Below, one piece after another: positions 151 through 55,600 of a DNA stretch of 64,000 nt (position 1 is its first letter; every line of letters starts with the position of its first letter). The stretch is taken from assembly GCF_035083965.1 (NCBI RefSeq), contig NC_089722.1, positions 18,848,642 to 18,912,641 of the forward strand, given 5' to 3'. The notes beneath the pieces are model-generated. The model was given only the letters and a program-made list of their open reading frames with translations, had not been told where the DNA came from and did not search any database. Source of the stretch: Branchiostoma lanceolatum (Eukaryota; Chordata; Leptocardii; Amphioxiformes; Branchiostomatidae). The position numbers and the translations under genes are program-made.

Positions 151-1286
151 CATGAACCAGGAAAGGGAGAAAGGTTCGTGATCTCCCTGGACAAGAGCCG
201 TGCCGACCGGCCCAAGCCGGGCGGGATGTTGGACCTGTTCTGCGAGGGCCTGGACCCGCGCTGGGCCGTCGCGACTCCTGTTGGGGAGGGGGGTGGATCG
301 GATGGTGACGTCATGGTCGTACTGCCGCCCCGTACGTTACTGTATACAAGCCTCTAACAGGCTCCGCGGACAGCTGGGACAATAGTAGAAATTGGCCAAA
401 TAGAGTAAATAGTATGCTAAGAGTAGTCGGCTACGGTTAGAGGGTCCAATAGGCAATCCGTGGAGGCTATTGGACTCTCCGTATCCGACTACCCTTAGCA
501 TACTATTTACTCTATTTGGCCAATTTCTACTATTTTCCCAGCGAACCGCAGAGCCTGGTAGAGGCTAACAGTCTACTTGATCCGTCGTTATGCATTTGTA
601 AGTAGATGATAGGAGGGTAGATCGTAATGTTTTCTGGCTTCCAATTTTTTCTGACACTGTATAAAATCCACTCTTAAAGCACACATTGAAGCATGCGAAA
701 AATGAGGTTCTTCACTTCACTTTCGCGAATGTTTTCAGGTGTAGTGTGACGCGCTACCCTTCTCAGGTTGCTTATCAGAAAAATGAGGCAACCAGGATCT
801 TTTCAATCTTCCCTCCCAACACTTCTTGTACTTTCTCGAGTTTATATATGGATAGAGCCGTCGTTCATTATGGTTTTCTGAGCGCTTACTTCGGAATAAA
901 GAACTTGTAGATGCGATATCGACAGGAAGTTTGAAGACAACGTCTTATTCAAGAAGGTTCCACATCTTGAATCACTATCATATAGGTACATTTAATTGGA
1001 CACCATATCAACTTTTACAATTTATCATTAGATCCAATATATGGATATAGATTTTGCTTCGTTTAACCGTAAAACGCGCACAATCCCTCATTTCTCGTTG
1101 CTATACGTATCAAGCTACCATAAACAACATACGCTTGTTTTGCCAGGATACAAGTTTGGCACATCATCCCCAATGCTTAAATTTCTGACATCTTTTTTTC
1201 TTCTTCTGTTTTCTACGTGTGTCATCCAGGTACTCAACATCACGGAGACAATGGAGAAGAGTAACTCATGGCGGCGGCGTCGCTAG
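151..1286 (+). CDS. BRICHOS-domain cationic peptide precursor, copy A (3' part only; possibly degenerate)
   Basis: Two exons are visible; the upstream exons would lie left of the window. The first follows a CATTTTACAG acceptor at 150 and encodes the second half of the BRICHOS domain, with the Cys motif LFCEGLDPRW shared with copies B and C. The likely last exon is 1231-1286, after an acceptor whose pyrimidine tract resembles that of copy C; it encodes a tail ending KSNSWRRRR and a stop. With the strong donor at 331/332 (GTACGT) the reading phase is wrong and translation would stop early. With the weaker donor at 318/319 (GTACTG, a donor type used by the SGSM exon ending at 49880) the phase fits. 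A foldback MITE (345-578) sits in the intron. It is either a gene using the weaker donor or a copy broken by a phase slip. Confidence 0.5.
345..578. mobile_element. Foldback MITE in intron of BRICHOS copy A
   Basis: Long inverted repeat. The arm reading CTGGGACAATAGTAGAAATT through to TAGTATGCTAAG is repeated in reverse complement ending near 545. A further outer arm (CCTCTAACAGGCTCCGCGG against its partner near 555-575) extends the pairing. It has no coding capacity. A related copy with the same terminal sequence lies at 23478-23665. Confidence 0.8.
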
Positions 1287-4460: not shown

Positions 4461-5396
4461 AACTGTATATATGTCACAGTAGAGATTGGAATCCAGTAGA
4501 GTCCGGAACTCTACTAGTAGAGATTGGAATTCCAATCTCTACTAGTAGAGACTGGAATTCCAATCTCTACTAGTAGAGTTCCGGATTCTACTAGTTGAGA
4601 TTGGAATTCCAATCTCTACTAGTAGAGATTGGAATCGGGATCTGAATATTGGGATTCCAATCTCTACTAGGAGAATTCCAGATTCTACTGGTAGAGATTG
4701 GAATTCTACCAGGACAATCTCCAATTCTGATAGAAGAAATTCGGATTGCATCAAAATGTTTTGAAAAATGGACTGAGTCATTTCACACCTGAAATTTAGC
4801 CTTAGAAATTCACCATTACTATTTTAGGTTAAATACTGTATGTTTTAGATATCTAATAAACCTTCTGTCAAGACACATTGTAACCATGCGGATTGCCGTC
4901 CGGTCCAACCTTAGTCAATGGCTATTTGTAAATGCCACTGATATGTCAATCATTTGCATACGGCCATTATGGATTAGTGACTCAATATGCTCAACTAGTT
5001 TTTCCAGTTCGTTAGTGACTCGGTATATAAGAGCTAATTTACCCCTGCCAAGCCAGTTCCAAAATTGATGTCAAAGTTATCAGATATCTAAAATATGAAA
5101 TAATTCACCTAAAATAGTAATGGTGAATGTAGGCTTAGCTATGCTGCAATTTTAGGTGTGAAATGATTCAGTCTATTCTCCAAAACATTTTGATGGAATC
5201 CCAATATCCAGATCCCGATTCCAATCTCTACTAGTAGAGATTGGAATTCCAATCTCTACTAGTAGAGTCCGGAACTCTACTAGTTGAGATTGGAATTCCA
5301 GTCTCTACTAGTAGAGATTGGAATTCCAATCTCTACTAGTAGAGTTCCGGACTCTACTGGATTCCAATCTCTACTGTGACATATATATTAACAGTA
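4461..5396. mobile_element. Large foldback element with internally repeated arms
   Basis: Each end carries an array of short palindromic units such as TTGGAATTCCAATCTCTACT alternating with ACTAGTAGAG. The inner parts also pair: 4775-4860 (TCATTTCACACCTGAAATTTAG, ATTCACCATTACTATTTTAGG) recurs inverted at 5075-5205. The outer ends match as inverted copies too (TGTCACAGTAGAGATTGG). Total about 0.93 kb with arms of roughly 400 bp. A related satellite fragment is at 13720-13850. Confidence 0.8.
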
Positions 5397-6119
5397 CGGC
5401 AGTAATTTCACGACCAGTGAATTACAGAAGCATACAGAGTGACTTTAATAGGAATAGGTTTAAAAACTTGCATACAGTCAGTGAACAGTCAAATAACCAT
5501 TCATATGTATTTGTATTGTGTCTTAACTTCCAACGTCGGAAGTACCTTCGATCCCAAAAGGTCTATATAACGCGCTACAAATTGAACCAATATAGACTTA
5601 GCTACATACACATTGTACATAGTAAAACTTCTAATCTTCCCCGATCCTATTCATGGTGATGCGAGGGCCCCCGGTGGTAAATCCAATGGTGATCCAAGAT
5701 TTAAAGCTAGGTATGCGTAACTCACCAAACATGTCACTGCATAATGCATGTATAAGGCAAATGTAATTCTTTTACATCAATTATGCCACCTGCCGATTCA
5801 AATTGACCTGAAAAATAGCATTTTCTTAAACTTGTAAACAGGCATGGCATAGCAAGACCGTAAGGAATAATACGATCATAACGATACAAATTATACATAT
5901 TAATATTAGAAAGCGCTAACTAAGTCTCCCTTACTTCCCCTATGTGTTCACCTGTTTGCCCGTGAAGGCACAACTGTCTTTCCTTTTTGTTTGGTTCATT
6001 TCCGTTAGGCCCATGAATATTCTAAAGTCTAAAGCGCAAATACTCCCCTAACTTTCACGCCATGCTCGTGATTGAGCCTTCGTCGACGACCTACGACGAC
6101 CGGACTGTTGCAAGGCCTA

Positions 6120-6298
6120 CTATTTTCCGATCCAGCTGCGACGACGGAAGACAGTACGGCGGCGATCGAACCACGTGCGGCGGCGAACGATACTACGTCG
6201 GCGATCAAACCAGGAGCGGCGGCGAGAGCTGCTCCGACGACGCCACAGCTTTGTTTGGCCGGCGGGCCTCGGCCTTTCCTTTTCTTCGTCGGAGGTAC
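6120..6298 (-). CDS. Effector exon of copy B: three 13-residue Arg-rich repeats
   Basis: It follows a TTTTCTTTCTAG acceptor and joins in phase (G+GT). The pattern is RRR-x3-RRR-[ST]W[FI][DG], three times, so six RRR triplets alternate with spacers of 3 and 4 residues. The 39-nt DNA repeats are diverged in codon use (CGC/CGT/CGA/CGG), so protein-level constraint rather than recent DNA slippage is likely. The stop lies immediately after the final SWIGK. Confidence 0.8.
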
Positions 6299-8124
6299 CT
6301 AGAAAGAAAAGACGTCAGCCATGTACTTGTATCAAGATTGTTGTAGCTAGCTGACTTCTGCTCTGACGAAAACGAGTCCATGATGAAAAAAAATCTCAAA
6401 CAATATCGGCCTGTACATTTTCAAAAGAGGCATTAGGTGGCCTACAGCACTTACTCTCCGTCCCTCTATTGACAGCTCAAGTTCAGTGACATAGCAGATG
6501 CGTTTTAATTGGGGAAGGCCGTTAACGAGACAGACACGCTCTTCGACAACTCAAGAAAAAAGGCCACGTACCTGTCTCCACGATGACGTCGGCATCAGAG
6601 TTTTTGTCCGCCGGTTCAGCGGTGGCCCAGCGCGGGTCCAGGCCCTCACAGAAGTCCGCTAACTCCCCGCTCAGCTTGGGCTGGTCCTTACGGGTCTCGT
6701 CCAGGGAGATCGCGAACTTTCCCCCGTCGTCTTCCTCCTGTAAAATGATCATTTGCATTTCTTTTATTACTTTTGAACTCGTCCTCTTAATTGTCTTGAA
6801 CTACGTATACTGGAAGGCATAGTTTTGGATGTTGTAAGATTGTTAAGATAAAAATCACGATAAAAGTGGGTAAGATTTATAATGTGTTGTTTACCTCGTT
6901 GTCACGGTCTGTGTATGATTCATCGACGATGTAGCAAGTTTTACCACCGGGAGCCTTCACTGCTACCAGACCCTGCGTATTGACATGATACAGGCACAGA
7001 TGAATTAATCCCAGCGGTGCGCATGCTTATCTCACAACAATATAAACCATATAGGAGAGTTTATTGTTTAAACATGCTTCACATTGAAGAGTACTCAAAC
7101 TTAAAATTATTAGGAAACACTAGTCATGCTTTTATGCGGGGATTTGATTTCGCGGTAGGGACAAAATGGAGTGTTCGCGGCGGTTGCGGTTGAAATTATA
7201 TGTAGAGTATGCGGACAGAAAACAGAACAAGCATTTTGCGATGGCTGTAAGTTCACGGTGAAGGGGTCATCGCGAAAATCGCCGACACTAAACCACTGCG
7301 AAAATGTCAACATTTACTGTACTCTATGTCACAGCCATGTAAAAAAGTTAAATCTTACCGTCTTGGTGTCCTCCTTGAACTCGCCCTATCACAAAACGTA
7401 TAGAAAAAAGATTATGATGATTGTATCTAAAATTCCCTTTATCAAAGTAGTTCAAATGAATAAAATGTGAACCAAACAAAAAAACAAACAAAAATCTGAC
7501 AGCGTATGAAACAAGTTGACAAACCGGTGTCACGCGGCACGTACCATGGACAGGAGCTGGCCCCGGGCCATCCCTGCCGCCAACAGCACGACCAGCACGC
7601 CGACGAGGAGCGGGAGTCGCACACGACACAGCCGGCCTGGCCTGGCGCCCTGCTCGGTCTGTTTATCGATGAAAACAAAAACAGTAAGAATCAGGTTATG
7701 ATCCTGCTTGCCATTCTTTTTTTCGTCCGTCTGCTATGATTTTAAGCTTCATATTTCCGATGAAATCGTCCCTTGAAATTTATAATGCATGCGCGCGTGT
7801 GGTGATCAATGATTGTTAGTTCGACCACTTCGCACACTTGTCATACATAACACGGACAGATTGACTTTTATTTTGCGCTTTAACATACATTAAACAGCAA
7901 GGCTTATCTAGTCTTACTTTAGAATGATCTAGATCAAGCTTAAGACTTTTACATATCTAAATGGGACACAAAGATACTCTTTAGGTCTTCATCTGTTCGA
8001 CATCACAGAAAGTTTCGCCTTTTTAAACCGTAGATTTTCAATTGCTCACCCTGTAGGGGGCGGATCCGTGCGGGGTCTCCGTGCCGCCTTCTTGGTCCAC
8101 CTTGTCGTCCTGGCGGGATGTCAT
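6120..8124 (-). CDS. BRICHOS-domain precursor with tandem RRR cationic C-terminus, copy B
   Basis: Six coding exons with GT-AG borders: 8124-8050, 7658-7545, 7385-7359, 6972-6895, 6737-6572, 6298-6120 (212 aa; all phases join). Residues 1-43 are a hydrophilic N-terminus. A hydrophobic segment (LLVGVLVVLLAAGMA) at about 45-59 could be a type II anchor or a long signal peptide. A BRICHOS-like region follows, with GLVAVKAPGGKTCYIV and FCEGLDPRW providing the two family cysteines. The last exon encodes an acidic/basic spacer (TSDEEKERPRP) and then three 13-residue units: RRRSSSRRRSWFD, RRRSIVRRRTWFD and RRRTVFRRRSWIG, ending in Lys. Inferred role: secreted antimicrobial-type peptide released from a BRICHOS proprotein, as in annelid arenicin precursors. 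The first five exons are very close to copy C; the last is unrelated. Confidence 0.85.
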
Positions 8125-8136
8125 CGTGAATTAAGA

Positions 8137-8360
8137 AAGCCTGGAAATGAAATATCGACGGATTTTAGCGGGTAAATTTCGTTAGATAAGCCAGCAAAAT
8201 CGTCTAAAACGCCAATAGGTGTGATTTTTTTACCTGTCGTCTGCCCGTCTTGCCGCTCAGGAAGGAACAGGTAACTTCTGCAGCCGCGAAGTGAGTAAAC
8301 TTGGGAGAGTTCACGGTCAGAATGGGACAGCGGGGCTTGAGGGGCGGTATATATACACCT
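8137..8360 (-). promoter_or_regulatory. TATA promoter and 5' UTR intron of BRICHOS copy B
   Basis: A TATATATA box (8348-8355 on the minus strand, context GGTGTATATATACCGCCC) precedes a non-coding exon ending at donor 8234 (CAG|GTAAAA). A 5' UTR intron follows to the acceptor at 8141, 16 nt before the ATG. The same arrangement and sequence occur before copy C. Confidence 0.7.
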
Positions 8361-8540: not shown

Positions 8541-10560
8541 CATATGATACGATGATCTCATCACGAAGCCATGAGGAAATGTCACACTTTTAGGCGACCA
8601 AATTCTGGTGAGAAAAGCGTGGAAGTGATTGCCTTCTTTCAAATCATTGCTTTCTCATTTCATCTTTCACAATCACGACCAGCTTTAACGATGAGAATGA
8701 CCATAACAGACTATCATGGAAACACAGAGAATCTTACTGATATTTCAACAGAGATTGCATCTGATAACAAAGTTTTCTGACTGAGTGAGTTAGTCAATCA
8801 TGTTAGTCAGTCAATCGATCCTTTTCTGATATACGATGATCTTATCACGAAACCATGTAGAAATGTTGTACCTTTAGGCGACCAAATTTTGGTGAGAAAA
8901 GCGGACCTCTGATTGCACTTTTTCCAAACATTTGTATTTCTCATATCATTCCGTGACACAACCAACACCAGATTTGACGGCGTGAATGACAATAACGTTA
9001 AGTTTTAGTACGATTATCGTCTTGTGAATGAAGAATGTGAAAGTGACGTCATAGGGATGAATGCTGGATCTGAGCTAGAACACCTTAAGCCAGGTGTCTG
9101 GCACAGGTGCACAAGGAAACATAGCCTCCATAGCAGCCCCTGTTAGGCTGTTTGAAATAGTCGCTTTTGTCTGACAGGGAAGCTGATTTGTCGGGGTTTT
9201 TTTCTGATAAGGTACTAAGTTCTGATTGTTCCATCGTATGGTCGTTAGTGGTACCGTTTTAGGCTTGGGACAACGAAAGATATAAAGAACACTACATAAC
9301 CTGGGCAAAAAACGGACAATTTCAAAACGCCCACCGAGGCCTGCATTACAGGCTAAAGGAAACGATTAGCAGCGGAAACAAGATAATTGTGGCAGGATTA
9401 TGGACTTGGATAGTTTGCATTGCCATCTCTCCCCACTATGAGGTCTTTAAAAAGCTACCACAACAAGTGAATAGTACTAGAATACACTGAATAAGATATA
9501 TGAATTTGGCTTGGTCATGTAGTCTGGAAATGCTGTAAGATATCTATTGATGGCTCCAACCCAGAAAACTATGTCAATGACCTGATCACATAATTAAGCA
9601 TTAAGCCCCGGGCTACAGACAAGCTACGACCGAGTTGTGTGTTACTTTTGTCTTGTTTCACAAGGAAACGATCTACAGCAAAAATAAGTTAATTATCGCA
9701 ATGATATCGTCTATGAGAACAGTTGAACATTTCCGATTTCTAGATATTCTTCTTCCTCATCACTGTGAGGTCTTTGATTTAAAAAAAAAAACACATAACA
9801 AATGTATAATACAGGAAGTTCGGAGATGTCGACAAAAACGGGGCATATGATAAGTTCACAATTTTCCCCACCAACCTCTGCTTGGAGTTTATCGATTGAG
9901 TGGCGTCAAGCCAGCACACGTGTGTCAGTGACCTCATCATTTTGAGCCGTCATGCTTAAGCTATACAGACAAGGGACCGTCCGGTGAAGCGTCGCCTTTG
10001 TCTTGTTCCGCGAAAAGGAAACGACTCACAGCAAAAATAAGTTTAATTGTCGCAATGATATCATCGATTGGAATACTTGGATATTTTCACACGCGAAGGA
10101 GGAACATGTCACATGTGATAGTTGGGCTTGATTATCCAAAATTAACAAAATCGTGTTTTTTTAGAAAAGGACATCGATTTACTAGAAAAAATAGCTTCCC
10201 CTAAAACGACGTGAACAAAGCTTAAAATAAACCCAGCCTAAGTGGAAGAGGATGTTCAAAACTGTATGTGGGAAGTTACGTACACTAGCTATACATGTAC
10301 ATGGCATCAACTAGACTTTACATACCATCCTGGCAACTCTCGTCCATGTGCATATGTTTCTCTCCAACAAGTTCGGGCTTGTTTTTCGTGCAGACAAGAA
10401 CTAAGATTACAATCCATAAGGTCGTATGGTCTTGCTTATGTATCCTATTCATATAACGTTAGATCTACCAGAAAGGACTTGGGCACAGGAAAGAGTTCAT
10501 TTGTTGTTTGTACCTGAAAACTATTCACAATAAAAAAAGGCTCAAAACACAGTGACCAAG
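8540..10560. repeat. Repeat-rich flank, left arm of the inverted duplication
   Basis: It contains a tandem duplication (8546-8705 against 8829-8995, sharing ATGATCT-ATCACGAA and TTTAGGCGACCAAATT) and two or more copies of a roughly 300-bp unit (9500-9710, 9900-10070). Reverse-complement counterparts lie at 39835-40000, 40140-40330 and 40765-41060. No gene is supported in this stretch. Confidence 0.65.
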
Positions 10561-27400: not shown

Positions 27401-30400
27401 TATTTGACAATCTTTTACATGTAAATATTGTACTAAGAAATAATTTCATAATAGGAATCATAGTTTACATCACTGATATGTAACTCAATAAGTTTCTCTA
27501 AACCTCTGCCTTTTTTCTTCAGCCTGGTGAGATTGAGAAGAAATATACCGGTCTACTGGAAAAGAAATGGACCTCAGTCATCAGGCTACAGAAGAAGGTA
27601 TGTTGTCCTAGGCTAGGTGTTATCCTCTGAATTAGTTGGATTTTTTGTTGGAAAAAGATTTAGAATAGTAACAATGGCAGTTATGGAGTAATTAGGCAGG
27701 AAGGAAGATGTGCAAAATGCATATCATCAAAATCATCTATCGTCTAAATTTGTCTGCTGAATGATTGTACTTCTTTTTTGCGAACATTACATGCATAATA
27801 ATAATATCCTCCTCTCCATGTATTTTAGGTTATGAATCTTGAAGCAAACAGTGTTTTTTTATTCAAACAAGGCTGAATAAAAGTTCTAAATGGAAACTAT
27901 GCAGCTCCAGATGTGTTACTGAGGGACGACTGGTGTGAAAGATGTCAGTTAGCTTTAGGAATGAATCCTCTCTACTTTATCCTCTCCATGTATTTTAGGT
28001 AATGGATCTTGAAGCGAAGCTGGCAGAAGCAGAGAAAGAATTTCAGTCGGGCGGTCCGAACAAGAAGGAGCGATCTCCGTCAGAGTGGATCCCCAGACCG
28101 CCGGCGCGGTACAGTCTCAGCGGACACCGCAGCCCCATCACCAGAGTCCTCTTCCATCCAGTCTACAGTGTTATGGTCTCAGCCTCAGAAGATGCCACCA
28201 TTAAGGTAGGAATATCTACGTGTCCACCCTTGAGGTTTGTACACACTGCTGCAAGCCACATCTAGATGTTCAAATTCTGGCAGCCTGGGTTTGCGCCCGG
28301 GGTTGGACATAACTGGAAAAGAGTTGCCTTATTCTTTCGGATGGCGACGTAATGCTGATGGCCCTGTGTATGGGGAGCTTTTGGCATCAAACCTCTGAAT
28401 GTAAAAGAACCCTACACACTTATTGAGAAGAGTATAAGTGACCCGGGGTGCTCAAAATACATGACCCGTAGCAGAGCCATGTTACGGCTAACGAAAAAGC
28501 CTCATGCTTTGTCCTCAGTTTGAGTATACCTAAGCCTAGATAGCAAGTATCTTTCAAAGACGTAGCTCATGTTTTAGTTCATAGTAACATCTCATGTAAA
28601 GGAGCTTTATAAACTGATTACAAGTTGAAGCAACTGATGCAAGACTAAGAAATGAAGAAATGTTGTCTCATTTTAATTATTTTCATGAGTACATTGTATT
28701 CCTTGTTAAGTGGAAATTGTATTTAATGCTAACAGTTAGTAACACTGAAATTGTTTTCAGATTTGGGATTATGAAACAGGCGACTTTGAGCGCACGTTGA
28801 AGGGCCACACGGACGCCGTACAAGACGTGTCGTTCGACCACACGGGAAAGCTGCTAGCATCTTGTTCAGCAGACATGACCATCAAGTTATGGGACTTCCA
28901 GACCTTCGAAAACATTAAAACCATGCATGGTGCGTACAGTATACATTTGTATGTTACTGCTTGTGTTCTTGCAAATTCTGTTAGGTTATAACTTATGGCT
29001 TGTAGAAAATGAGCAAAGCTGCTTGATGTTTCTTGTCAAAGTTTTTAACAAGAGTCCAGGAATTCTTTGTTAGATGTGCAGTCTGATTTGAAGTAATTTG
29101 AGATATGGATGTTGAATTAAAAGTATTCGTAGTATAGCAGTAATATATTATCTAAAAGCTTAAGATTATTGTAATCATAGCAATAGGAATATTTTGCATT
29201 TGGGATTTTTTTGTCATTTTTTTGTCTTGTTTATTTATTATATTACGTTGTGTTCTTGTGGTGACTTTGTATTCTGTATGATAAAAATGCCTAAGGTTTA
29301 CAGAGTCCTCCCAAAATGAATGGAATGAAATGTATTTTCTGTATCAGAGTTATTATAATAAATTGCAAATTTCCAACACAAGTATTTGGACTTGCCCATA
29401 TTTTCGACTGATCAACTCCAGTCCTTTATTGATTCCTTTTTTATCGATTATAACTTTGATCCAGAATGACTTCTACCAACACAGATGAACATTCAAATGA
29501 AGTGTATGTTTGTTGTTCCACTATCCAGGACATGACCACAATGTATCGTCAGTCCACTTCATGCCCAACGGAGACTTCCTGATCTCAGCCTCCAGAGATA
29601 AGACCATCAAAATGTGGGAACTTGCCACAGGGTCAGTCTTCTCATTTTAGTTTGATACTTTGATAGTTGATTCAGATGTCCATCAAGCCCCTATCACACA
29701 TACATGTACATGTAGCCAACCATAGGGCTGTCTCCAGCTTTGAATTTTTTTCTGTCCCACACATCATTTGGGAGCCCATGTTGATGATTTTCGTTGTTAA
29801 ATCTGTCATTTTAAGCCAATGAAAACACATTTTTATCAAGTTCATGTCATGAAGCTCAGATTTTTTGATGGATGGGCTGAAATTTGTTTCCGTCCCAATA
29901 AGCCTTCTGTCCCGGGACGGAGTAACATGTCCTGGAGACAGCCTCCTACCTTGCACTCCCAATCCAACCCAGCAATTCAAGCTAACACAAAATTTACATG
30001 AACTAGACACTTGCACATAAAAAACTCTTTAAGCCCTCCACTGACAATTGGACTGCTTAAGTCGATGTGCAGACAGTAAGTAGAGCTTGTCGCCTTCCCA
30101 GACTGGTCCTGTGTCTGTGGAAGTGAATCGAAGCTTTGACATTATGCCTTGTTTTATTCCTGTCAAGTCTTGTGGAATGACTGGCTACTGCAGGGCTTTT
30201 AATTCACCGTTAATGCCTATTATAGGGATTACATCCAATCTGTGATTTGTATTATACTCTGTAAAAGATTATAATCTTTTAAGCATGTTGTGAAGCATGA
30301 TTGGAGGCTCTGAGTGAAAACATTGCATCTAAGAGACAATATATTTGCGGATTTCAGTTAGTTTCAGTAGATTTTCAAAACCTACAGCCTCCGTCAGTAT

Positions 30401-39829: not shown

Positions 39830-41230
39830 ATTTTTGCTGTGGAACAAGACAAAGGTAACGCTCAACTCGATGGTCCCTTGTCTACAGCTGTAGCCTGAGG
39901 CTCAAGACTCCAAATGACGAGGTCACTGGCACATGTACAAGTATGGATCCATCAGTATATATCCGCAGCCTTATAGCATTTCCAGGCTACCTTGCTAAGC
40001 CAAACGTAACTATTTTTCGCTCAATGTGTCCATGTACTAATACATTTATTGTGGGATTGTTGTGTTTCAAAGACACACGGTGATGTGATAGAAATGTGAG
40101 ATAGCTATTCTCTAGAAGACCACTGCTCCAATCAACTTATTTTTGCTGTATATCGTTTCCTTGTCGTGCACGTGGAACAAGACAAAGGCGACGCGTGACT
40201 TGACGGTCTCATGTCTGTAGCCTTAGGCTTAACTTAAAGCTTGTTCAAGTGATCAGGTCACCGACACAGGTGTGCTGACTGGGAGCCATCAATAGATACC
40301 TTGCAGTATTTCAAGGCTACCTTACTAACCAAATCATTTTTTGTTCAGTGTGTTTCTGTACTATACACTTACACTTATGCGGGTTTTTTTGTAGACCTCA
40401 CAGTTTTCATGAACAGAGATGACGATGCAAACTATCAAAGTCCACGACGTTGCGACGATTGTCGCTGCAAATCGTTTCCTCTAGCCTCTAATGCAGGCTT
40501 TATATGAGCTTTGATATCACCATTATATTTTCCTGCTTACAGTGTTACTGTACAGTTGCTGTTACAGTTTCCTGCTAACGACCACAAAATGGCAACGATC
40601 AGAATTTTGCATACCCAGTACTATCAGCTAAAAATGGCAATTTGAAGATGCTGAAGAGAGACTGCTATGAAGGCTACGTTTACTTACAATTGTGAGGGAG
40701 GGCTGCTCTCGGGTGTATGCTAATCTGACCTTTTGCCAGACACTTGGCTCAAATTGTGCTTGCTCAGATCCAGCATTCATCCCTATAATGTCATGTTAAC
40801 ATTCTACATTTACAAGACGACAAACGTACGAAAACTTGACGTATGGTCATTGACATAGTTACAACTAGTGGTAGTAATGTAGAATCATTTGAGAAAAGCG
40901 AATGTTTGAAAGAAGACAAACACAGGTACGCTTTTCTCACCCATACTCCCCCCCCCAACAAACACACACACACATATACCCCCCTCCCAAATTTGGTCGC
41001 CTTAGTGTGACATATCCTCATGTCTTTGTGATGAGATCATCCTAAAAATGATGGGCCACAAACTTGGATAGCTCCGCCCATTTCAAGGTAGAGATCAAGA
41101 ACATATAGCTCCGCCCATCTTAGCTTGGCCGAATAGTCGTGTAGAATATGTCGTTATACTTCAAAACGCTTTGTTCAACAACCTAAAGACACTGTTTAAT
41201 ATTAATGAGTACCCAGAACCGTACCCAACA
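39830..41230. repeat. Repeat-rich flank, right arm of the inverted duplication
   Basis: Reverse-complement counterpart of 8.4-10.1 kb. Examples: AGCATTTCCAGGCTACCTTG (39976) against the complement of 9520-9540; GACAAAGGCGACG (40187) against 9985-9999; CCAGCATTCATCCCTAT (40772) against 9053-9069; AAATTTGGTCGCCT (40989) against 8876-8890. Two copies of the roughly 300-bp unit lie at 39835-40000 and 40140-40330. No gene seen. Confidence 0.65.
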
Positions 41231-41354
41231 GGTGTATATATACCGCCCTCAAGCCGCGCTGTCCCATTCTGACCGTGAACTCTCCCAAGTTTACTCACTT
41301 CCCGGCTGCAGAAGTTACCTGTTCCTTCACGGCGGCGAGACGGGCAGACGACAG
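41040..41354 (+). promoter_or_regulatory. Promoter and 5' UTR exon of BRICHOS copy C
   Basis: Two intact TAGCTCCGCCCAT motifs (about 41070-41083 and 41107-41119) lie upstream of a TATATATA box (41235-41242). The presumed start is near 41265. A non-coding exon ends at the donor CAG|GTAAAA (41354/41355); the 5' UTR intron ends at 41446, 12 nt before the ATG. Sequence from TTAATATTAATGAGTACCC through the UTR exon is almost the same as at copy B. Confidence 0.7.
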
Positions 41355-41458: not shown

Positions 41459-43630
41459 ATGACATCCCGCCAGGACGACAAGGTGAACCAAGAAGGCTGC
41501 CCCGGGTCCCCAACGGAGCCCTACAAGGTGTGTTAGTATGAGCGATTGAAAATTCACGGTCTAAAACTAGCCTCCTTTGTAGGCCTCCCAGGCGGCGCCG
41601 GCGATAATTTTTTTGGGATTGCTGATTCGCGTTTTTTAACTTATCGGGGACAAGGTCGTTTGCTGAGGAACGGTTCAAAGACCGTATTGCGGGTTCCCCA
41701 GCAAAAGACCCTGCCCGGGCGCCCCGTTGAGTTAAAAAACGAGAATCAGCAATCCACCAAAAATTATTGCCTGGGAGGCCTGCAAAGGTGGCTAGTCTAA
41801 AACGGTGAAACTTTTAGCGATATTGACTGGCAAAACGAAGAACTTAGCTGCTCATTGCTGCAGCTTTGTGCGCAAATGGGATACGTACACATGTCGTCTT
41901 GATCTTGCTATACAGGAAGTCTGTCTGAGCGCACAAGGAAAGTGAATTTGCTTGTGTGAATTAATTAGTGGAACATACAATTAGTCGAAACATGCATTAC
42001 ATATTTCAAGAGACGATTGCGTCGCAAATATGAAGCTCGAAATTTATAGCAGACGGGCAAAATGATACGCAAACAGGCTCATAACCTAACTTTTACTGCG
42101 TTTCGTCACTGAAATAGACCGGGCAGCAGCAAGCCGAGCCAGGCCGGCTGTGTCGTGTGCGACTCCCGCTCCTCGTCGGCGTGCTGGTCGTGCTGTTGGC
42201 GGCAGGGATGGCCCGGGGCCAGCTCCTGTCCATGGTACGTGCCGCGTGACGCTGGTTTGTCAACTTGATTCGTACGCTGTCAGTTTCTGCCCTTATTTGT
42301 TTTAGATTTTTGGCTAGATTTTTCATCTAACATTTCATTCAGTTGGACTACTTTGATAGCGCTAATTTCAGATATGGTTCTGATATTTTTTTCTGACATG
42401 TTTTGCCTAGGGTGAGTTCAAGGAGGACATAAAGAAGGTATGGCTGCACATAATTTTTGTTTTGCCATCGCATGAAATATTTCCTACTAACGTTGTTGTC
42501 CCTTACAATTGAAGCATTTTCCACACCTAAGTATGAAGAATATGACTTTTATTGATTGATGTGAAAGACTGCATGGACTAGGAGTATTCTATCAGTGGAT
42601 ACATATTTTTTCTGTCCAGGGTCTTGTAGCAGTGAAGGCCCCCGGTGGCAAAACTTGCTACATCGTCAATGTGGCACAGACAGACCGTGACAACGAGGTA
42701 AGCCACATATATATTTATGACCATTTTCATGTAATCATTTCTTGAAAATGTTTACAACATCCTAGACTATGTATGGATGCATTCGTCAAGTAGCTAGAAC
42801 TTAGAAGCAATGAGACGACTTAAACATAGCCAAGGTCCCTGTCATTTAAAGTCGACTTGTACCAAGGTATGATGTGAAGAAATATTTCTATTTTGTATCT
42901 ACTTACTTACAGGAGACGGTATTCTAGATATTTGACACATTATGCTAAACTAGTCACTAATCTTGTATGCAAGACTGGTTCTTAAACAACTTATCTCTCG
43001 ATTATTGTGGTCCTACACTACTTTGGCTCCCTACCATTTTGCAGAAGGAGGAAGGCGACGGTGGGAAGTTGGCGGTATCCCTGGACGAGACCCGTAAGGA
43101 CCAGCCCAAGCTGAGCGGGGAGTTAGCGGAGTTCTGTGAGGGCCTGGACCCGCGCTGGGCCACCGCTGAACCGGCGGACAAAAACTCTGATGCCGACGTC
43201 ATCGTGGAGACCGGTACGTGACCAAACACATGATGTAGTCCCGATTTAGATCAAACCCTCCCAATGCCGTATGGACATAGGAAATCGCCCCAGATAGGGT
43301 GGGCGATTGGCCAATAGAATTATCCAGCGCACCAGAGAAAACAAAAGCTGGCTTGTGAGCACTTCTCTGGCGCGCTATTTCTATTGGTCAGGCATCTTAC
43401 ATGTACTCGTTATTGGTTTTCTATCAAGATACAAGTGTGGCATAATGACCCCGCTAGTTTTTTTTACATTTCTGACATCGTTTCACTGTTTTCTATGTAC
43501 TTCATATACATTAGGTGCCTTCGGTGGAAAAAAGGAGAAACGTCCCAGTACCAAATCTTGGTGGTGGGGGAGACGTCGACGTTGCTGTCGTCGCCGCTGG
43601 TGGCCGCTCCCAACGGAGCCTTTGAAATAG
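41459..43630 (+). CDS. BRICHOS-domain precursor with W/R/C-rich C-terminus, copy C
   Basis: Six coding exons: 41459-41527, 42118-42234, 42411-42437, 42620-42697, 43045-43213, 43515-43630; all phases join to 191 aa. The hydrophilic N-terminus begins MTSRQDDKVNQEG. The hydrophobic segment LLVGVLVVLLAAGMA spans about 42-56. The BRICHOS-like region has TCYIV and FCEGLDPRW cysteines about 40 residues apart. The last exon encodes AFGGKKEKR (dibasic, possible processing site though Pro follows), then PSTKS and the cationic WWWGRRRRCCRRRWW, then PLPTEPLK. The arrangement (membrane/signal segment, BRICHOS, short cationic C-terminal peptide on its own exon) matches annelid BRICHOS antimicrobial precursors; function here is inferred. 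Alternatives such as a chondromodulin/tenomodulin relative are less likely because the conserved C-terminal Cys domain of those is absent. Confidence 0.85.
41561..41803. mobile_element. MITE in intron 1 of BRICHOS copy C, absent from copy B
   Basis: Terminal inverted repeats TAGCCTCCTTTGTAGGCCTC / GAGGCCTGCAAAGGTGGCTA, with inner arms (TTGCTGATTCGCGTTTTTTAAC against its inverse) also pairing. Flanks carry a direct CTAAAAC duplication. Copy B has an uninterrupted GGTTTAAAAAGGCGAAAC at the same place, an empty site. Confidence 0.85.
43515..43630 (+). CDS. Effector exon of copy C: near-palindromic Trp/Arg/Cys peptide
   Basis: The exon follows a CATTAG acceptor and joins in phase 1. The core reads WWWGRRRRCCRRRWW: Trp at both ends, Arg blocks inside and a vicinal Cys pair at the centre, net charge about +7. 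The vicinal Cys suggests intermolecular disulphides or dimerisation rather than a hairpin bridge (inference). Confidence 0.8.
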
Positions 43631-45340
43631 GCCCTGATGTGGGAAGCCTTGCACTTCATAGCCACACCTTTTCCCACAAAGCCTTAAGGGTATGGCGTGA
43701 AAAAATATTGAGAGTTCATGCAGGCTTTAAGCTTACTAATAGAGATACGTGTTTTCTTAATTTTTAGTGAACTAGACACCTCAGCAAATCACTAAAAGGG
43801 ATATCGTGCTGCTGCGGACAAACAGGTGATTCTTAGGTTTCACTTTGCTCTTCAATACGTTGTTATCATAGTTTTTTATCATCTCAATTCGTTACCATTC
43901 CATTGCCATGTCAGTCTACCGTACGATACCGTATGTATCAGCATGTAAAGGTGGCATGCTTGAAGTAGAAGAAATCTTTTGCTAGCTTTGAAGGAAACAT
44001 CACCAACAAAAGGATCAAGAAATTTGGGAGTTTTGATATGTATGCCCATTGTGTATAGATCTGCTTCAAATGGTAGCCTTATACATGTAGTTCTTACTGT
44101 AGTCGAAAATAGATACAATTGCAGAAACATGTACGGTGAAAGTTTGATACAAAGGAATGACTGTACACATGCCTTCTAGATTATTCCTATTAAAGTAACT
44201 CTATGTGCCTCTGCAACCCACTGGTCGTGAAATTACTCTACTGTACTGTGATGATAGATAAGTGCTGTGTTACCGTACGCGTGTACGCAGTAAAATGCCA
44301 AACACTGACAAGAAACAAAGGACATACGATAAACAATGAACCCTGACACGACCAAGACGCGGGAAAAGAACAGCGATGACGGAGAAAAGCATAAATGGAC
44401 AGTGGCGATAGAAAGAGAAGACTGTCGATAATATAAAGTAAGGTAATGTAAGGCATGGCGCTTCTTCATTAGCTAGTAGTGCGGCATCGCTACGGCTCGC
44501 GTGTTTTTGACCAAGCACATGCACCGGGTCACCCCTACTCTTTTAGATAAGTGTGTTGGGCTCTTTTACGTGCAGAGGTTTGACGAAAAAGCATATTCTA
44601 CACATCATCGACCAAAAACCGTAGCCTAAGTCACAGATTCTAGTCGACGATTTGACATTGCCGGTTTTTACTGGAAAAACCTCGAATTCTTATTTCTTCC
44701 ATTTTTCGTTGTTAGTGATGATGTCGCGATAAGCTGTTAGAAAACGGAAGAAACCAGAAAACAGTAACGTTACTTAACCAGCGAAGTAACAGCAATTCTA
44801 AAACGCCGACTGAAGCCTGCTATGTAGGCTAGAGGAAACGATCTGCAGCGAAAATTAGCTCATTGTCGGGGACTCATTCAAGTGAACAGTTTGACTTCTA
44901 GATCATTTATCAACAATAGCAAAACCGTGTCCGCGAAACCATTGACCAGAATAACATGTATATAATTATAACCACCAATATCAATGCAAATCTATTTCAC
45001 AGCAATGTACGACAGACTTGTTTCTTCAACCTGGAGGTCTGGGAATGCTGTAAGTCTTCAGACTTCATGACAACACAACGCTTTGAAACATTGACTTTAT
45101 AGACAATTAAACTATCAAATCGGGCGTCGCATCTGCCTTTTACTGCAAAAAGAAAGCGATCTAAAGCAAAAGCATCTAGAGCTCAACACACTGTGAGCTC
45201 AACAGTTCATTTTTATAGAACGTGCCGTGTCATTTTCTTTAAGGACACATTTACATGTACCTGTAAATATCAAGCTGCACCAACCTCGCCCAGCTTCAAT
45301 GGAAAGAACAGGAGAGAGAGCACCGATAAGTTGTAGTTGT
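43631..45340. other. Intergenic, repeats; no gene seen
   Basis: It includes a dispersed repeat (44480-44590, inverted relative of 28300-28510) and the inverted partner (44650-44880) of the 3275-3490 repeat, followed by a diverged relative to about 45190. Short open frames on the minus strand around 44233-44524 have no recognisable family. Confidence 0.5.
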
Positions 45341-49638: not shown

Positions 49639-52600
49639 AACAACTCTCTCTTGTCATGTGACAAAAGATACAGATACCAGAAGTTCTGCTGCAGTATCAA
49701 GGTCAATGGCCAGAGGGCCCAAAAGTGACTTAGACCTTTGTGTTCACAATACCTACCCACATACCAAATTACATCACAATCCATCCAGATTTTCTTGAGT
49801 TATTGTACACGCAAACATACAAACCAAAAACTAATTATGCTGTCGATTAGCATTATGCAGCAGTAATGTGATACAGTACCTCTCTTGAAGTCCAGCAGGA
49901 ACCATCTGTAGCAGAAGTAGAAGTGGGTGTAGTCCCCGTTCTGGTGCATTAACTCAAACATCTCTGAGTCCAGGATCTATAACATAAAGAACAGATGTCA
50001 ATGAACTACATAATATATATATATATTTAGTGGTTTGGGGCACCGTTCTTATTAATTTGTGGTAACTTGTTACTAGTATACACTAATAAAATCACTGAAA
50101 TACCCTTCTGAAAATAAAAGGCTAACCATCAGAAATCTTGAAAAAACATGCCAACCAAAATCACAGCAACCAATATTAGCAACATGCAAATCAGGGTCCA
50201 TGGCAAGTCCACTGATAGCTTTATGTACACTGATGAAGAACTTTATTGCACGGCAATTGTACACAGTACAAATTAAGGCAACAACTATTAAACATAATAC
50301 AAAATAGAAGTATAGAATAAAACTTAACATCCTAATTTCTAATACAATCACAATAAGGGCTAGCATAAGTCTTTGATATAGTGTAATGATGTATGCTGGA
50401 GTTTGGAGCTAAAAGTGGGTTTACTTGATACAACATGATGATATACATGTAGACAATGTCACCCTGTGACTCTCACCTGTATGAGGGATCTCATGTTGGC
50501 AAAGTGTGTGTCCATGGCTCACCTGTATGAGGGATCTCATGTTGGCAAAGTGTGTCCATGGCTCACCTGTATGAGGGATCTCATGTTGGCAAAGTGTGTC
50601 CATGGCTCACCTGTATGAGGGATCTCATGTTGGCAAAGTGTGTCCATGGCTCACCTGTATGAGGGATCTCATGTTGGCAAAGTGTGTCCATGGCTCACCT
50701 GTATGAGGGATCTCATGTTGGCAAAGTGTGTCCATGGCTCACCTGTATGAGGGATCTCATGTTGGCAAAGTGTGTGTCCATGGCTCACCTGTATGAGGGA
50801 TCTCATGTTGGCAAAGTGTGTGTCCATGGCTCACCTGTATGAGGGATCTCATGTTGGCAAAGTGTGTGTCCATGGCTCACCTGTATGAGGGATCTCATGT
50901 TGGCAAAGTGTGTGTCCATGGCTCACCTGTATGAGGGATCTCATGTTGGCAAAGTGTGTGTCCATGGCTCACCTGTATGAGGGATCTCATGTTGGCAAAG
51001 TGTGTGTCCATGGCTCACCTGTATGAGGGATCTCATGTTGGCAAAGTGTGTGTCCATGGCTCACCTGTATGAGGGATCTCATGTTGGCAAAGTGTGTGTC
51101 CATGGCTCACCTGTATGAGGGATCTCATGTTGGCAAAGTGTGTGTCCATGGCTCACCTGTATGAGGGATCTCATGTTGGCAAAGTGTGTGTCCATGGCTC
51201 ACCTGTATGAGGGATCTCATGTTGGCAAAGTGTGTGTCCATGGCTCACCTGTATGAGGGATCTTATGTTGGCAAAGTGTGTGTCTATGGCTCACCTGTAT
51301 GAGGGATCTCATGTTGGCAAAGTGTGTGTCCATGGCTCACCTGTATGAGGGATCTCATGTTGGCAAAGTGTGTGTCCATGGCTCACCTGTATGAGGGATC
51401 TCATGTTGGCAAAGTGTGTCCATGGCTCACCTGTATGAGGGATCTCATGTTGGCAAAGTGTGTGTCCATGGCTCACCTGTATGAGGGATCTCATGTTGGC
51501 AAAGTGTGTCCATGGCTCACCTGTATGAGGGATCTCATGTTGGCAAAGTGTGTGTCCATGGCTCACCTGTATGAGGGATCTCATGTTGGCAAAGTGTGTC
51601 CATGGCTCACCTGTATGAGGGATCTCATGTTGGCAAAGTGTGTCCATGGCTCACCTGTATGAGGGATCTCATGTTGGCAAAGTGTGTCCATGGCTCACCT
51701 GTATGAGGGATCTCATGTTGGCAAAGTGTGTCCATGGCTCACCTGTATGAGGGATCTCATGTTGGCAAAGTGTGTCCATGGCTCACCTGTATGAGGGATC
51801 TCATGTTGGCAAAGTGTGTGTCCATGGCTCACCTGTATGAGGGATCTCATGTTGGCAAAGTGTGTGTCCATGGCTCACCTGTATGAGGGATCTCATGTTG
51901 GCAAAGTGTGTCCATGGCTCACCTGTATGAGGGATCTCATGTTGGCAAAGTGTGTCCATGGCTCACCTGTATGAGGGATCTCATGTTGGCAAAGTGTGTC
52001 CATGGCTCACCTGTATGAGGGATCTCATGTTGGCAAAGTGTGTCCATGGCTCACCTGTATGAGGGATCTCATGTTGGCAAAGTGTGTGTCCATGGCTCAC
52101 CTGTATGAGGGATCTCATGTTGGCAAAGTGTGTCCATGGCTCACCTGTATGAGGGATCTCATGTTGGCAAAGTGTGTGTCCATGGCTCACCTGTATGAGG
52201 GATCTCATGTTGGCAAAGTGTGTCCATGGCTCACCTGTATGAGGGATCTCATGTTGGCAAAGTGTGTCCATGGCTCACCTGTATGAGGGATCTCATGTTG
52301 GCAAAGTGTGTGTCCATGGCTCACCTGTATGAGGGATCTCATGTTGGCAAAGTGTGTCCATGGCTCACCTGTATGAGGGATCTCATGTTGGCAAAGTGTG
52401 TGTCCATGGCTCACCTGTATGAGGGATCTCATGTTGGCAAAGTGTGTCCATGGCTCACCTGTATGAGGGATCTCATGTTGGCAAAGTGTGTGTCCATGGC
52501 TCCGCCGTGTGGGAAGTTCTGTGACATTCTCTTCATCAGCTGGCAGAAACAACTGTATGTCTTCGCCTCTGTTGGAGTGATGGAAAAACAGTCACTACTC

Positions 52601-55600
52601 AGTTCATTTATAATTATTGTCTTTTGAAATTTTATGTGCATTTGGTATTACTAGGCCAGTTCTTAAGCCCTTCAACGTAATGCACTTGATCACTGAAGGT
52701 ATGTATGAGACCATGGTAACACAAGATTGTGATAACCTTGCTTGTGATTTAACTACGGTAAAAACCAGAATACTGCAAGAAGGACCAGCAAAAAACAGGA
52801 ACTCTTCTAAATCCTTAAACACTCATCCAGCAGCCCTTGAAACTGTACAGAAATCTATTGACAACTAAGCAAAGATGTTAGAAAACCCCAGAAAACTCAC
52901 CATCATCCAGTATGACCAGTAGAGGTGCAGCCAGATCACACATACCCTGTACATACCCCACCTCCATGTGTTCCCACACATACCTGGCAGCGAAAGGAGA
53001 ATACAACAGTTAAAATTCAATTTTTGTCTCTGAAATTACCAATTTTTTAAAACATTCCTTTTCATGATGATCCAGATAGATCAGGGAGCTTCTTACGAAA
53101 GGCTTTTCACATGGCAAAGTTTAAACCACCAGTTTTCCATTACTGCACAATATGTGAACTTTTAAGACCTTAAAAACACCGGAACCACTCCACTTTCCCC
53201 TTACTGCGAAAATAAATCGCCACAAACTTAAAGGCATTTGCATACATCAGATAATTTAAAACAGCCAATCTTTGCTTCTCTTGTATACAAATTGGTACAA
53301 TCATCATGGCACAGTTTTCTTTTTAGTATACCAGCTATAATGAGTTATTATCAAAAGGTGTACTCACGTGCACATGATGTTCCTTAGCTTCTCCAGGTTG
53401 ATGGGAGTGAAGTATGGGTAGTTCCTGTCACAGCGAGCCACGTCCTTGTCTATACGGTGCAGGTTCAGCCCATAGTTGTCCAACAGTTTTGTCTATATGA
53501 AGCATTGATAATGAATCAAATAAATACAAGCTTTTAAGACTGTAGTAGATATGCTTCATACATCATCTACCATATCTATAGCACTTCTTACAAAACTTAT
53601 AGCAAAATTTGGTTTGTTCAAGAGTAAGAATACATTAGATACATAGAAAAGCATTCAATACATTTTCATGATCAGATGCAGCATACATCAAATATGCAAT
53701 TCATTTGGAAATTATTAGGTGTGCACATATTTTGTATGCACATGGCCTATTCTATAATCACATTCTTGTGTATCTTTATGATTTTTGTTTAGTTTCCCAA
53801 ATTTGATCCATTCCCTGTGAAACAATTTGTTTGCAAGTCTGGGTTTTCTACCAAAGTTACTACCAAAATAGGAAAACTTTCCTGCCACTTGATGTCACTG
53901 AAGTGGAAGGCACTGCAAGTTCAGCACCAAGGACAAAAACAGGAGAGATCCCATATAACTATTAGTTTTTCTTTCAGCTTGGCAATAGGAAGTTGTTATC
54001 TGTAGGGATGTTGTGTCATGCATTTCTTTTCAGAGTTTCCTAACTTTGAACCAACCCCTGTGCTCTGTAAGTGTTGTCTTTGGGTACCACCACAATGATA
54101 GCCTTTAGAACCATGATCCATCCAAACTAAAAGATCCTAATGTATAAGAGTTAAATGCAGGGCTGTCTCAAGGATCCGTTCCTCTGCCTTGGGACGAAAA
54201 GTTGCTTGTGGGGACAGAAAAATGTTACCCCATCTGTGCAAAAAATCTCAACTTTGATGCATGAAATTGCTGAAAATGTATTTTTGTAAGCATAAAATTA
54301 TGAATCTAACATCATGTCGAGCTCCCAAACAATGAGTGGAAGAAAACAAAATTCAAAGTTGGAGACAGCCCTAGACTGAACTTTTTGCTTACATCATAGT
54401 CACATCCCTGTGTGGACTCAGGAGAAGGGTTGCGGTCCATGGGTTCCACAGCGAGTGTCTCCTGCTCATTCATACAGGCTGAGATCTCCTGGTCTCTCTG
54501 GTCCTCCTCATCCTCCTCATCTACGGTCGCCTGTCTATCAATGTTGATCATCTCATGGCTTCTCTTTATCTTCTTGTTCTCGTTTTCATCTCCCGGTTCC
54601 TTATCGTTGACGCTCAAGCGCCCGGCGTAGTCGACGCTGTCGCGGTCGTACGTGCTGCATGAGCTCCCGATTCCCTCATCGATTTTATCAGGACCGGAGC
54701 TGACGCTCAGGCCCTTGGGGAGTTCCACGGTGTGGTTGATGCCTTGTATGAATTCTGGACTTTCTGAAGAGGAGTCGACGCTGTCCTTCTTTCTTGCACG
54801 AGACGTCTCGTGGTTCCCTTCATCGTCTTCGAAAACCTGTGGAGGTGTAACACACGAGAATGGTTCAACACTGAAACTCAACTGTATGTCCTACCTACCC
54901 TCTTGTTTTGGCACCATAGTAGTTAGATTCTTTTAACCTTATATACTAGGTACATGTGCTTACAGCACCAGAAACTGTTACTTTACAGTTGACATTCTAC
55001 AGTAATCACCATACGCTGATTTAAGCCTGATAAACTGAAATAGAAATGATACAAAAGAGTTCTAGAAGATTTTTCAAACTGACAAGACAAGTGAAAAAGA
55101 GTCTAGAAGAAGATCACCACCACTTTTTCTTCACCTTCATGCACAAAACACCTTCAAAACATATAGCCGTTCACCAAAATGACATTGCCACTAATGTTGT
55201 AGTAGGTTCCAGTCTTTGGCAGAATTTCATCCTCATCTACCAATGAATCTACACTGCTAGAATGCTGTAACATCAAACATAGTCAGGACAATACATTTAT
55301 TACAATAAGCCATTTTAAAGCAATAACAAGTAGAGCATACCCTGCACACAAAAACAACAAAAACAGAAACCCATATAAACATTAAGGGAGAAGAACACAT
55401 TTAGTTTAGGTGAATATCTATAAGAAAATGTACAACACATACTGTGAACACATAATATTCACACAAAAACAATTAGCAGACAATTAACAAAAACAAATTA
55501 AAGTTTAAACTGACCAACAAAACAACTTAGGTCATGCCGATTCATTCAATTTCTTGGTTTTTGGATATAGAGATGCATGACATGCCGTGATAACATTTAA

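Follow-up and report, generated by a model that had tools for sequence, protein, structure and literature searches.

The window, that is, the whole 64,000-nt stretch of Branchiostoma lanceolatum DNA analysed here, contains three related loci, called genes A, B and C in the order of their positions. Gene B lies on the minus strand at 8124-6120, and its coordinates, strand and six-exon model, proposed before in a sequence-only reading, hold: rebuilt from the minus strand, 5 of 5 introns are GT-AG and the exons join into one open frame of 212 aa. Coding exon 1 (8050..8124, residues 1-25) encodes the N-terminus, and exon 2 (7545..7658, residues 26-63), in the same rebuilt frame, encodes a hydrophobic segment, presumably a signal anchor, which is the hydrophobic N-terminal segment that the same reading had seen. 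Exon 3 (7359..7385) reads GEFKEDTKT with the candidate BRICHOS Asp (D69), exon 4 (6895..6972) has the first BRICHOS Cys (C85) in a region whose Pfam BRICHOS match is sub-threshold, and exon 5 (6572..6737) has the second Cys (C128, in FCEGLDPRW) and an acidic linker. Exon 6 (6120..6298, stop included) encodes further linker and an Arg/Trp tail with a GK-stop end. Upstream, a TATA-type box (TATATATA, 8348..8355, minus strand) sits within a run of 56 bases without a difference between genes B and C, and it is followed by a probable 5' non-coding exon (8234..8325, minus strand), of which the start is approximate and placed by eye and which has a CAG/GTAAAA donor at its end; exon 1 begins, again by eye, at 8140 downstream of it. 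Over the stretch 8340-8231, 104 of 109 aligned bases (95%) are the same as in gene C. On the 3' side, a candidate poly(A) signal ATTAAA (5444..5449, minus strand) lies in a 68-column block that is 84% identical in gene C. The probable non-coding exon, the C-terminal Gly-Lys and the paralogues A and C are additions to the earlier reading. As a separate observation, a 102-nt direct repeat with copies 80% alike (8547-8648 and 8831-8932) stands upstream of gene B, and by eye gene C has similar sequence upstream as well, near 40930-41060.

Gene C, found by tblastn of the gene B protein against the window, lies on the plus strand at 41459-43630 and has six coding exons, 191 aa, and exon phases as in gene B. 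Its TATA-type box, the counterpart of that in gene B, is at 41235-41242, and the exons are at 41459..41527, 42118..42234 (the hydrophobic segment), 42411..42437 (GEFKEDIKK), 42620..42697, 43045..43213 and 43515..43630, the last one encoding the tail GAFGGKKEKRPSTKSWWWGRRRRCCRRRWWPLPTEPLK before the stop, with a candidate ATTAAA poly(A) signal at 44189..44194. This gene, absent from the sequence-only reading, is the strongest support for the finding on gene B, and the keeping of every exon and frame in two copies is, at the level of sequence, probably the best stand-in for transcript evidence on gene B.

Gene A is known from the same tblastn search as an isolated homologue of exon 5 (151..331, plus strand), covering the region of the second BRICHOS Cys; the earlier exons would precede the start of the window. 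The exon is intact, and compared with gene B it has dN 0.38 and dS 0.51. A candidate exon 6 is located at 1230..1286 (plus strand, acceptor placed by eye), where one frame gives ...EKSNSWRRRR-stop while the usual phase of the family gives the short ...TQHHGDNGEE-stop, so gene A may be either a gene whose alternative donor is weak or a copy that has been damaged. Between the two exons of gene A there is also an 88-nt inverted repeat (349-436/479-566), and between genes A and B a foldback element at 4466-5387, with 194-nt arms 98% complementary and internal units of 21 and 28 nt, which appears MITE-like by eye.

Exon 6 of gene B encodes the tail. As had been claimed, three 13-residue Arg-triplet repeats of the form RRR-x3-RRR-[ST]W[FI][DG] are found there, encoded by three 39-nt units (6126..6242, minus strand) with Arg at 18 of 39 residues; the tail reads exactly RRRSSSRRRSWFD, RRRSIVRRRTWFD and RRRTVFRRRSWIG, then K and the stop. 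Shifted by 13 residues the tail matches itself at 17 of 26 positions; of 100,000 sequences made by shuffling its residues, 0 reach this value, and of 200,000 such sequences 0 contain three copies of RRRx3RRRxW, a motif derived from the tail itself. The codons of the repeats have diverged, as the earlier reading also stated, with unit pairs matching at 29, 22 and 27 of 39 nt. Over a small sample of 39 codon pairs, which are non-independent, the pooled pS is 0.65 and pN 0.22 (dN/dS about 0.18). Since the synonymous sites thus differ far more than the non-synonymous ones, the peptide pattern looks constrained, in line with the selection on the peptide proposed earlier. It should be mentioned that one plus-strand frame over the repeats likewise reads RRR blocks, as runs of CGN codons are nearly self-complementary; the strand and frame of gene B are therefore taken from the splice sites and gene C instead of the repeats. 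The absence of RxxR inside the tail (0 against a shuffle mean of 7.4; as low in 1 of 100,000) was considered as a signal and dropped, being a by-product of spacers of at least 3 residues, and RxxR is present in gene C.

In gene C the tail is rich in Trp, Arg and Cys (KSWWWGRRRRCCRRRWW), and the last exon, ending ...KKEKRPSTKSWWWGRRRRCCRRRWWPLPTEPLK, has one RRR-x3-RRR-x-W module where gene B has three. Among 200,000 shuffles of the last 29 residues, 40 contain such a module, and the 33 nt of the module in gene C agree with the units of gene B at 20-23 positions.

The BRICHOS domain assigned to gene B by the sequence-only reading stands in part. With the Pfam cut-off of PF04089 (BRICHOS) at 25 bits, this family is the sole one matched by the excised domain of gene C (E 0.013, 16.2 bits, profile positions 10-37), by the excised domain of gene B (E 0.15, 12.7 bits, positions 10-30), and by the whole gene C protein (E 0.096, 13.4 bits), in each case below the cut-off, whereas for the whole 212-aa gene B protein a BRICHOS match is not found at E<=10. 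The PF04089 matches start at position 10 of the 91 profile positions and cover the first part only, leaving the second Cys out. Thus the complete lack of a profile match for exons 3-5, which had been named as grounds for rejecting the reading, is not what we observe, although the matches stay below the cut-off. Searched alone against Pfam, exon 5 of gene A does not retrieve BRICHOS. The hallmark residues of the domain are present, as D69-C85-C128 in gene B and D68-C84-C128 in gene C, with an Asp-Cys spacing of 16. In the sections consulted of PMC2751770, one Asp and two Cys are the only fully conserved BRICHOS residues (D144, C160 and C219 in ITM2A), and in those of PMC9627735 the Asp is present in 97% of single BRICHOS domains. 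The D-x15-C spacing of B and C is that of proSP-C and, by the same sections of PMC2751770, also that of ITM2A D144/C160. Local alignment to the proSP-C BRICHOS segment, which was checked against PDB 2yad, gives a score of 47 for gene C (2 of 2000 shuffles) and 37 for gene B (38 of 2000). The Cys-Cys spacing is 43-44 in B and C versus 68 in proSP-C. Table 1 of PMC2751770, so far as available, gives a domain length of 83-104 residues and a linker of at least 24 before the domain; the domain of gene B, by our own boundaries (64-137), has about 74 residues and follows the hydrophobic segment after a linker of about 7, under both values. Because the matches are sub-threshold yet the three hallmark residues are present, we use the label BRICHOS-like, and the proregion is probably a shortened true member of the family.

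Other searches were made around this assignment. In the PDB, the gene B protein has no sequence match at E<=10, and a three-row profile of A, B and C has five weak matches (best E 0.36), with no BRICHOS chain among them. The top Pfam match of the whole gene B protein is DUF740 (E 0.002, 17.4 bits against a cut-off of 21.2), spanning residues 143-193, i.e., the acidic linker and the first part of the tail, and a CCCH zinc-finger model also appears (E 0.13); both are judged composition-driven and are set aside because the tail exon alone has no Pfam match. Introns 2 and 3 of genes B and C contain 17 stop-free pieces of at least 20 residues on the coding strand, and 10 of the 17 compared with Pfam give no BRICHOS, only two unrelated weak matches (E 0.065 and 0.069), so a missed BRICHOS exon is unlikely.

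Comparison of genes B and C shows a nearly constant front and a divergent end. The core promoter and 5' non-coding exon are nearly identical, with identical runs of 56 and 45 bases. A run of 113 identical bases extends across exon 2 into the beginning of intron 2, with about 0.5 of the 34.5 synonymous sites of exon 2 different, and exon 5 has identical runs of 53 and 80 bases and dS 0.116, while exons 1, 3 and 4 have dS from 0.25 to 0.67. Counted in rounded sites, synonymous changes are 5 of 72 in exons 2 and 5 against 10 of 38 in exons 1, 3 and 4 (Fisher p 0.008, for a grouping picked after the data were seen). The likeness of exons 2 and 5 fits gene conversion, and constraint on the DNA may be the other source. 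When exons 1-5 are pooled, dN is 0.077 and dS 0.139; exon 2 alone has dN 0.073 above dS 0.015, with all changes in its first codons. At the protein level the stretch RVRLPLLVGVLVVLLAAGMARG is identical in both. Measured against single-base shuffles (200 for exon 6, otherwise 60), the alignment of B with C is clear in the 3' region (z 11), also present in intron 1 (z 11) and intron 2 (z 14), moderate in exon 6 (z 5.2) and weak in intron 3 (z 3.4) and intron 4 (z 3.2), while intron 5 cannot be aligned (z 1.0). The low similarity therefore spans more than exon 6, and the difference between front and end is one of degree. Among themselves the units of gene B have dS from 0.8 to saturated, more than the pooled exons 1-5 of B versus C. 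This suggests repeats that predate the most recent homogenisation of the front exons, or a separate history of exon 6.

On the whole, the precursor encoded by gene B is laid out as a short N-terminal piece, a hydrophobic segment, an acidic BRICHOS-like proregion and a cationic peptide, and the last exon encodes the cationic C-terminal peptide in both B and C. The net charge of the proregion is -13 in B and -6 in C, and that of the tail +17 and +9. We consider it somewhat probable that B and C, which share the proregion and diverge in the peptide exon, encode BRICHOS-type precursors of host-defence peptides rich in Arg and Trp. The antimicrobial precursor suggested by the sequence-only reading is borne out so far as the layout fits the design of BRICHOS-carried AMPs and is repeated by gene C, and is weakened by the BRICHOS match remaining below the cut-off.

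The mechanism could be as follows. The products of genes B and C, and perhaps of A, would be precursors of the type II membrane or signal-anchored kind. Ahead of the hydrophobic segment stands RPGRLCRVR, with four Arg in nine residues, and by the positive-inside rule the basic flank of such a segment stays on the cytosolic side, so the BRICHOS-like part and the tail would be luminal. There the acidic proregion would shield and chaperone the strongly basic C-terminal segment, the opposite charges allowing partial mutual neutralisation until cleavage, and a basic-residue-directed protease would free the last-exon peptide, in gene B one of about 40 residues, net +17, with three RRR-x3-RRR-xW modules. 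The C-terminal GK might permit amidation, with the terminal Lys first removed and the Gly then oxidised. Once free, the peptide might serve in host defence, its targets being the anionic membranes of microbes or intracellular polyanions. The weakest step for gene B is the release site: gene C has KEKR/P before the tail, while gene B has only KLW-RRR at the tail edge and no canonical dibasic site just before it, its first dibasic pair besides RK at 114 lying within the tail.

How the tail could work may be considered from its physical pattern. It is amphipathic neither as an alpha-helix (at 100 degrees the moment is 0.06, and 4739 of 5000 shuffles are at least as high) nor as a beta-strand (at 170 degrees it is 0.23, with 2272 of 5000 at least as high), and its charge blocks are periodic at about 6.5 residues; being block-periodic and non-amphipathic, it would likely act via charge and Trp blocks and not via a standard fold. 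AlphaFold, run on the 58 residues of exon 6 as one sequence, returns a low-confidence helix (mean pLDDT 58.6), which was set aside as too uncertain. The same block pattern would suit a non-antimicrobial role, in which the polycationic tail of the BRICHOS-like precursor binds glycosaminoglycans, mucus or other polyanions, e.g., for matrix anchoring or granule packing, and most BRICHOS families, in the sections consulted of PMC9627735, are not AMP precursors. However, Trp adjoins the Arg blocks in both tails, and the tails diverge between the paralogues much more than the proregion does, both of which are more typical of effector peptides, so we regard this alternative as rather unlikely.

The sequence of the gene B tail might also be real while the gene itself is silent or decaying, as the frame problem at exon 6 of the ambiguous gene A could hint. 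Such a state is improbable for gene B in view of the fully open frames and intact splice sites of B and C, their near-identical core promoters, and the pooled dN below dS in exons 1-5, though exon 2 alone shows the reverse. Another reading is a precursor cut at each RRR in the style of neuropeptide precursors, freeing SWFD, TWFD and SWI-amide: six RRR clusters part the short segments, the tail has 12 dibasic pairs, and GK stands at the end, but products of 3-4 residues are improbable and the one module of gene C makes no such series, which leaves this reading very improbable. Least probable of all, with only a very slight chance, is an intracellular tail behind a hydrophobic segment that does not export it, serving protamine-like nucleic-acid binding or offering basophilic-kinase RRR[ST] sites, for although Ser or Thr follows RRR in 6 of 6 clusters of gene B, RRR[ST] is not kept in gene C, the tail is Trp-rich, and the conserved hydrophobic segment and BRICHOS-like Cys pair point to the secretory lumen.

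The host-defence peptide precursor thus appears the best reading, strengthened by gene C; from architecture and composition only, we infer that the tails of B and C may be antimicrobial. The design named in the sequence-only reading is well documented, as precursors with BRICHOS and a cationic C-terminal peptide are known from annelids, where they comprise arenicin, alvinellacin, nicomicin, capitellacin and the HfBRI series (in the sections consulted of PMC6265681, PMC10745061 and PMC5431198). With B and C they have in common the hydrophobic N-terminal segment, the BRICHOS or BRICHOS-like proregion and the cationic C-terminal peptide (PMC6265681, in part). The preproalvinellacin gene, as drawn in the portion of PMC5431198 at hand, has five introns with the AMP in the last exon, which is also the arrangement of B and C, and Heteromastus, by the corresponding portion of PMC10745061, has five transmembrane BRICHOS-AMP precursors, with Cys-free peptides too. 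Unlike the annelid precursors, those described here belong to an amphioxus, have a shortened BRICHOS region below the Pfam cut-off, and in gene B have a tail of exact 13-residue Arg-triplet/Trp units; moreover, the AMP exon of Alvinella is nearly invariant, so far as its published description is available, while between B and C it is the peptide exon that diverges. In comparison with vertebrate BRICHOS proteins (proSP-C, ITM2/Bri, chondromodulin and gastrokine), B and C share a hydrophobic segment followed by BRICHOS, the Asp and two Cys, and the spacing of 16, and differ in the shorter Cys-Cys spacing, the almost missing linker and the Arg-rich tail. Among classical peptides, indolicidin and tritrpticin are Cys-free, Arg/Trp-rich AMPs from cathelin precursors; the tail of gene B resembles them in being rich in Arg and Trp and free of Cys, and differs in being longer, built of 13-residue units, and attached to a BRICHOS-like precursor and not a cathelin one.

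For amphioxus itself, the AMPs named in the sections consulted of PMC11767717 and PMC10608444 are BjAMP1, big defensin and ribosomal-protein peptides; they come from the same subphylum as B and C, and no BRICHOS precursor is named for them in those sections or in that of PMC12734493. BRICHOS peptides are discussed under polychaetes in the former two, and BRICHOS and amphioxus are mentioned apart in the accessible text of PMC11767717, PMC10608444, PMC12466427 and PMC12734493. The domain as such does occur in lancelets (PMC11579453), and an amphioxus sequence is placed in a divergent BRICHOS group, with function not given in the portion at hand of PMC2751770. PMC9627735 sets up an AMP group whose BRICHOS domains come from marine animals, and since species are not listed in the accessible part of that paper, a chordate member may be included. 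In the open-licence literature, among the matches listed and in the parts of them available, no chordate, amphioxus included, is found with a BRICHOS-related AMP. Genes B and C may stand in genome annotations already, under a generic name.

The annelid design of BRICHOS-carried AMPs is thus apparently present in a chordate, where the domain is reduced and the Arg-triplet/Trp peptide is of an unfamiliar kind. This would matter as the reviews, in their accessible parts, name few amphioxus AMPs and treat BRICHOS precursors mainly under polychaetes. If chordates do have such a family, its chaperone part near-constant and its Arg/Trp peptides divergent, this would suggest BRICHOS as a general carrier for cationic peptides that are hard to handle, comparable to the cathelin domain of cathelicidins, and RRR-x3-RRR-xW would be a block-patterned design outside the standard helix and hairpin classes. 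More tentatively, we propose an AMP family of amphioxus' own, in which an almost constant chaperone cassette, anchored in the membrane and kept alike in exons 2 and 5 by gene conversion, would carry a fast-changing last exon made of an Arg3-x3-Arg3-x-Trp module, itself repeated, or recombined between the paralogues. On that reading, if true, effectors carried by BRICHOS would occur in annelids and chordates alike, and peptides of triplet-Arg/Trp blocks would form a new type of AMP.

The rest of the window is of other content. Unrelated genes stand between B and C: pieces of an RNA methyltransferase (PF05971), which we take to be METTL16, are found at 15.2-17.3 kb, followed by a WD40 exon at 31.1-31.4 kb. 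A SNORA68 H/ACA snoRNA (30010-30144, plus strand) exceeds the Rfam gathering score. Beyond gene C, a 46-bp satellite-like tandem array of 45 copies with 98% matches occupies 50472-52502. The window also has a miR-2060 family match above the Rfam gathering score, and with Branchiostoma belcheri miR-2060c-3p as query (sequence from the accessible part of PMC5650284), five matches with 1-3 mismatches are found on both strands at 53919-62786, where 0 are expected. Two of the five lie within tandem repeats of 41-43 nt, and together the five perhaps represent a miR-2060 cluster.
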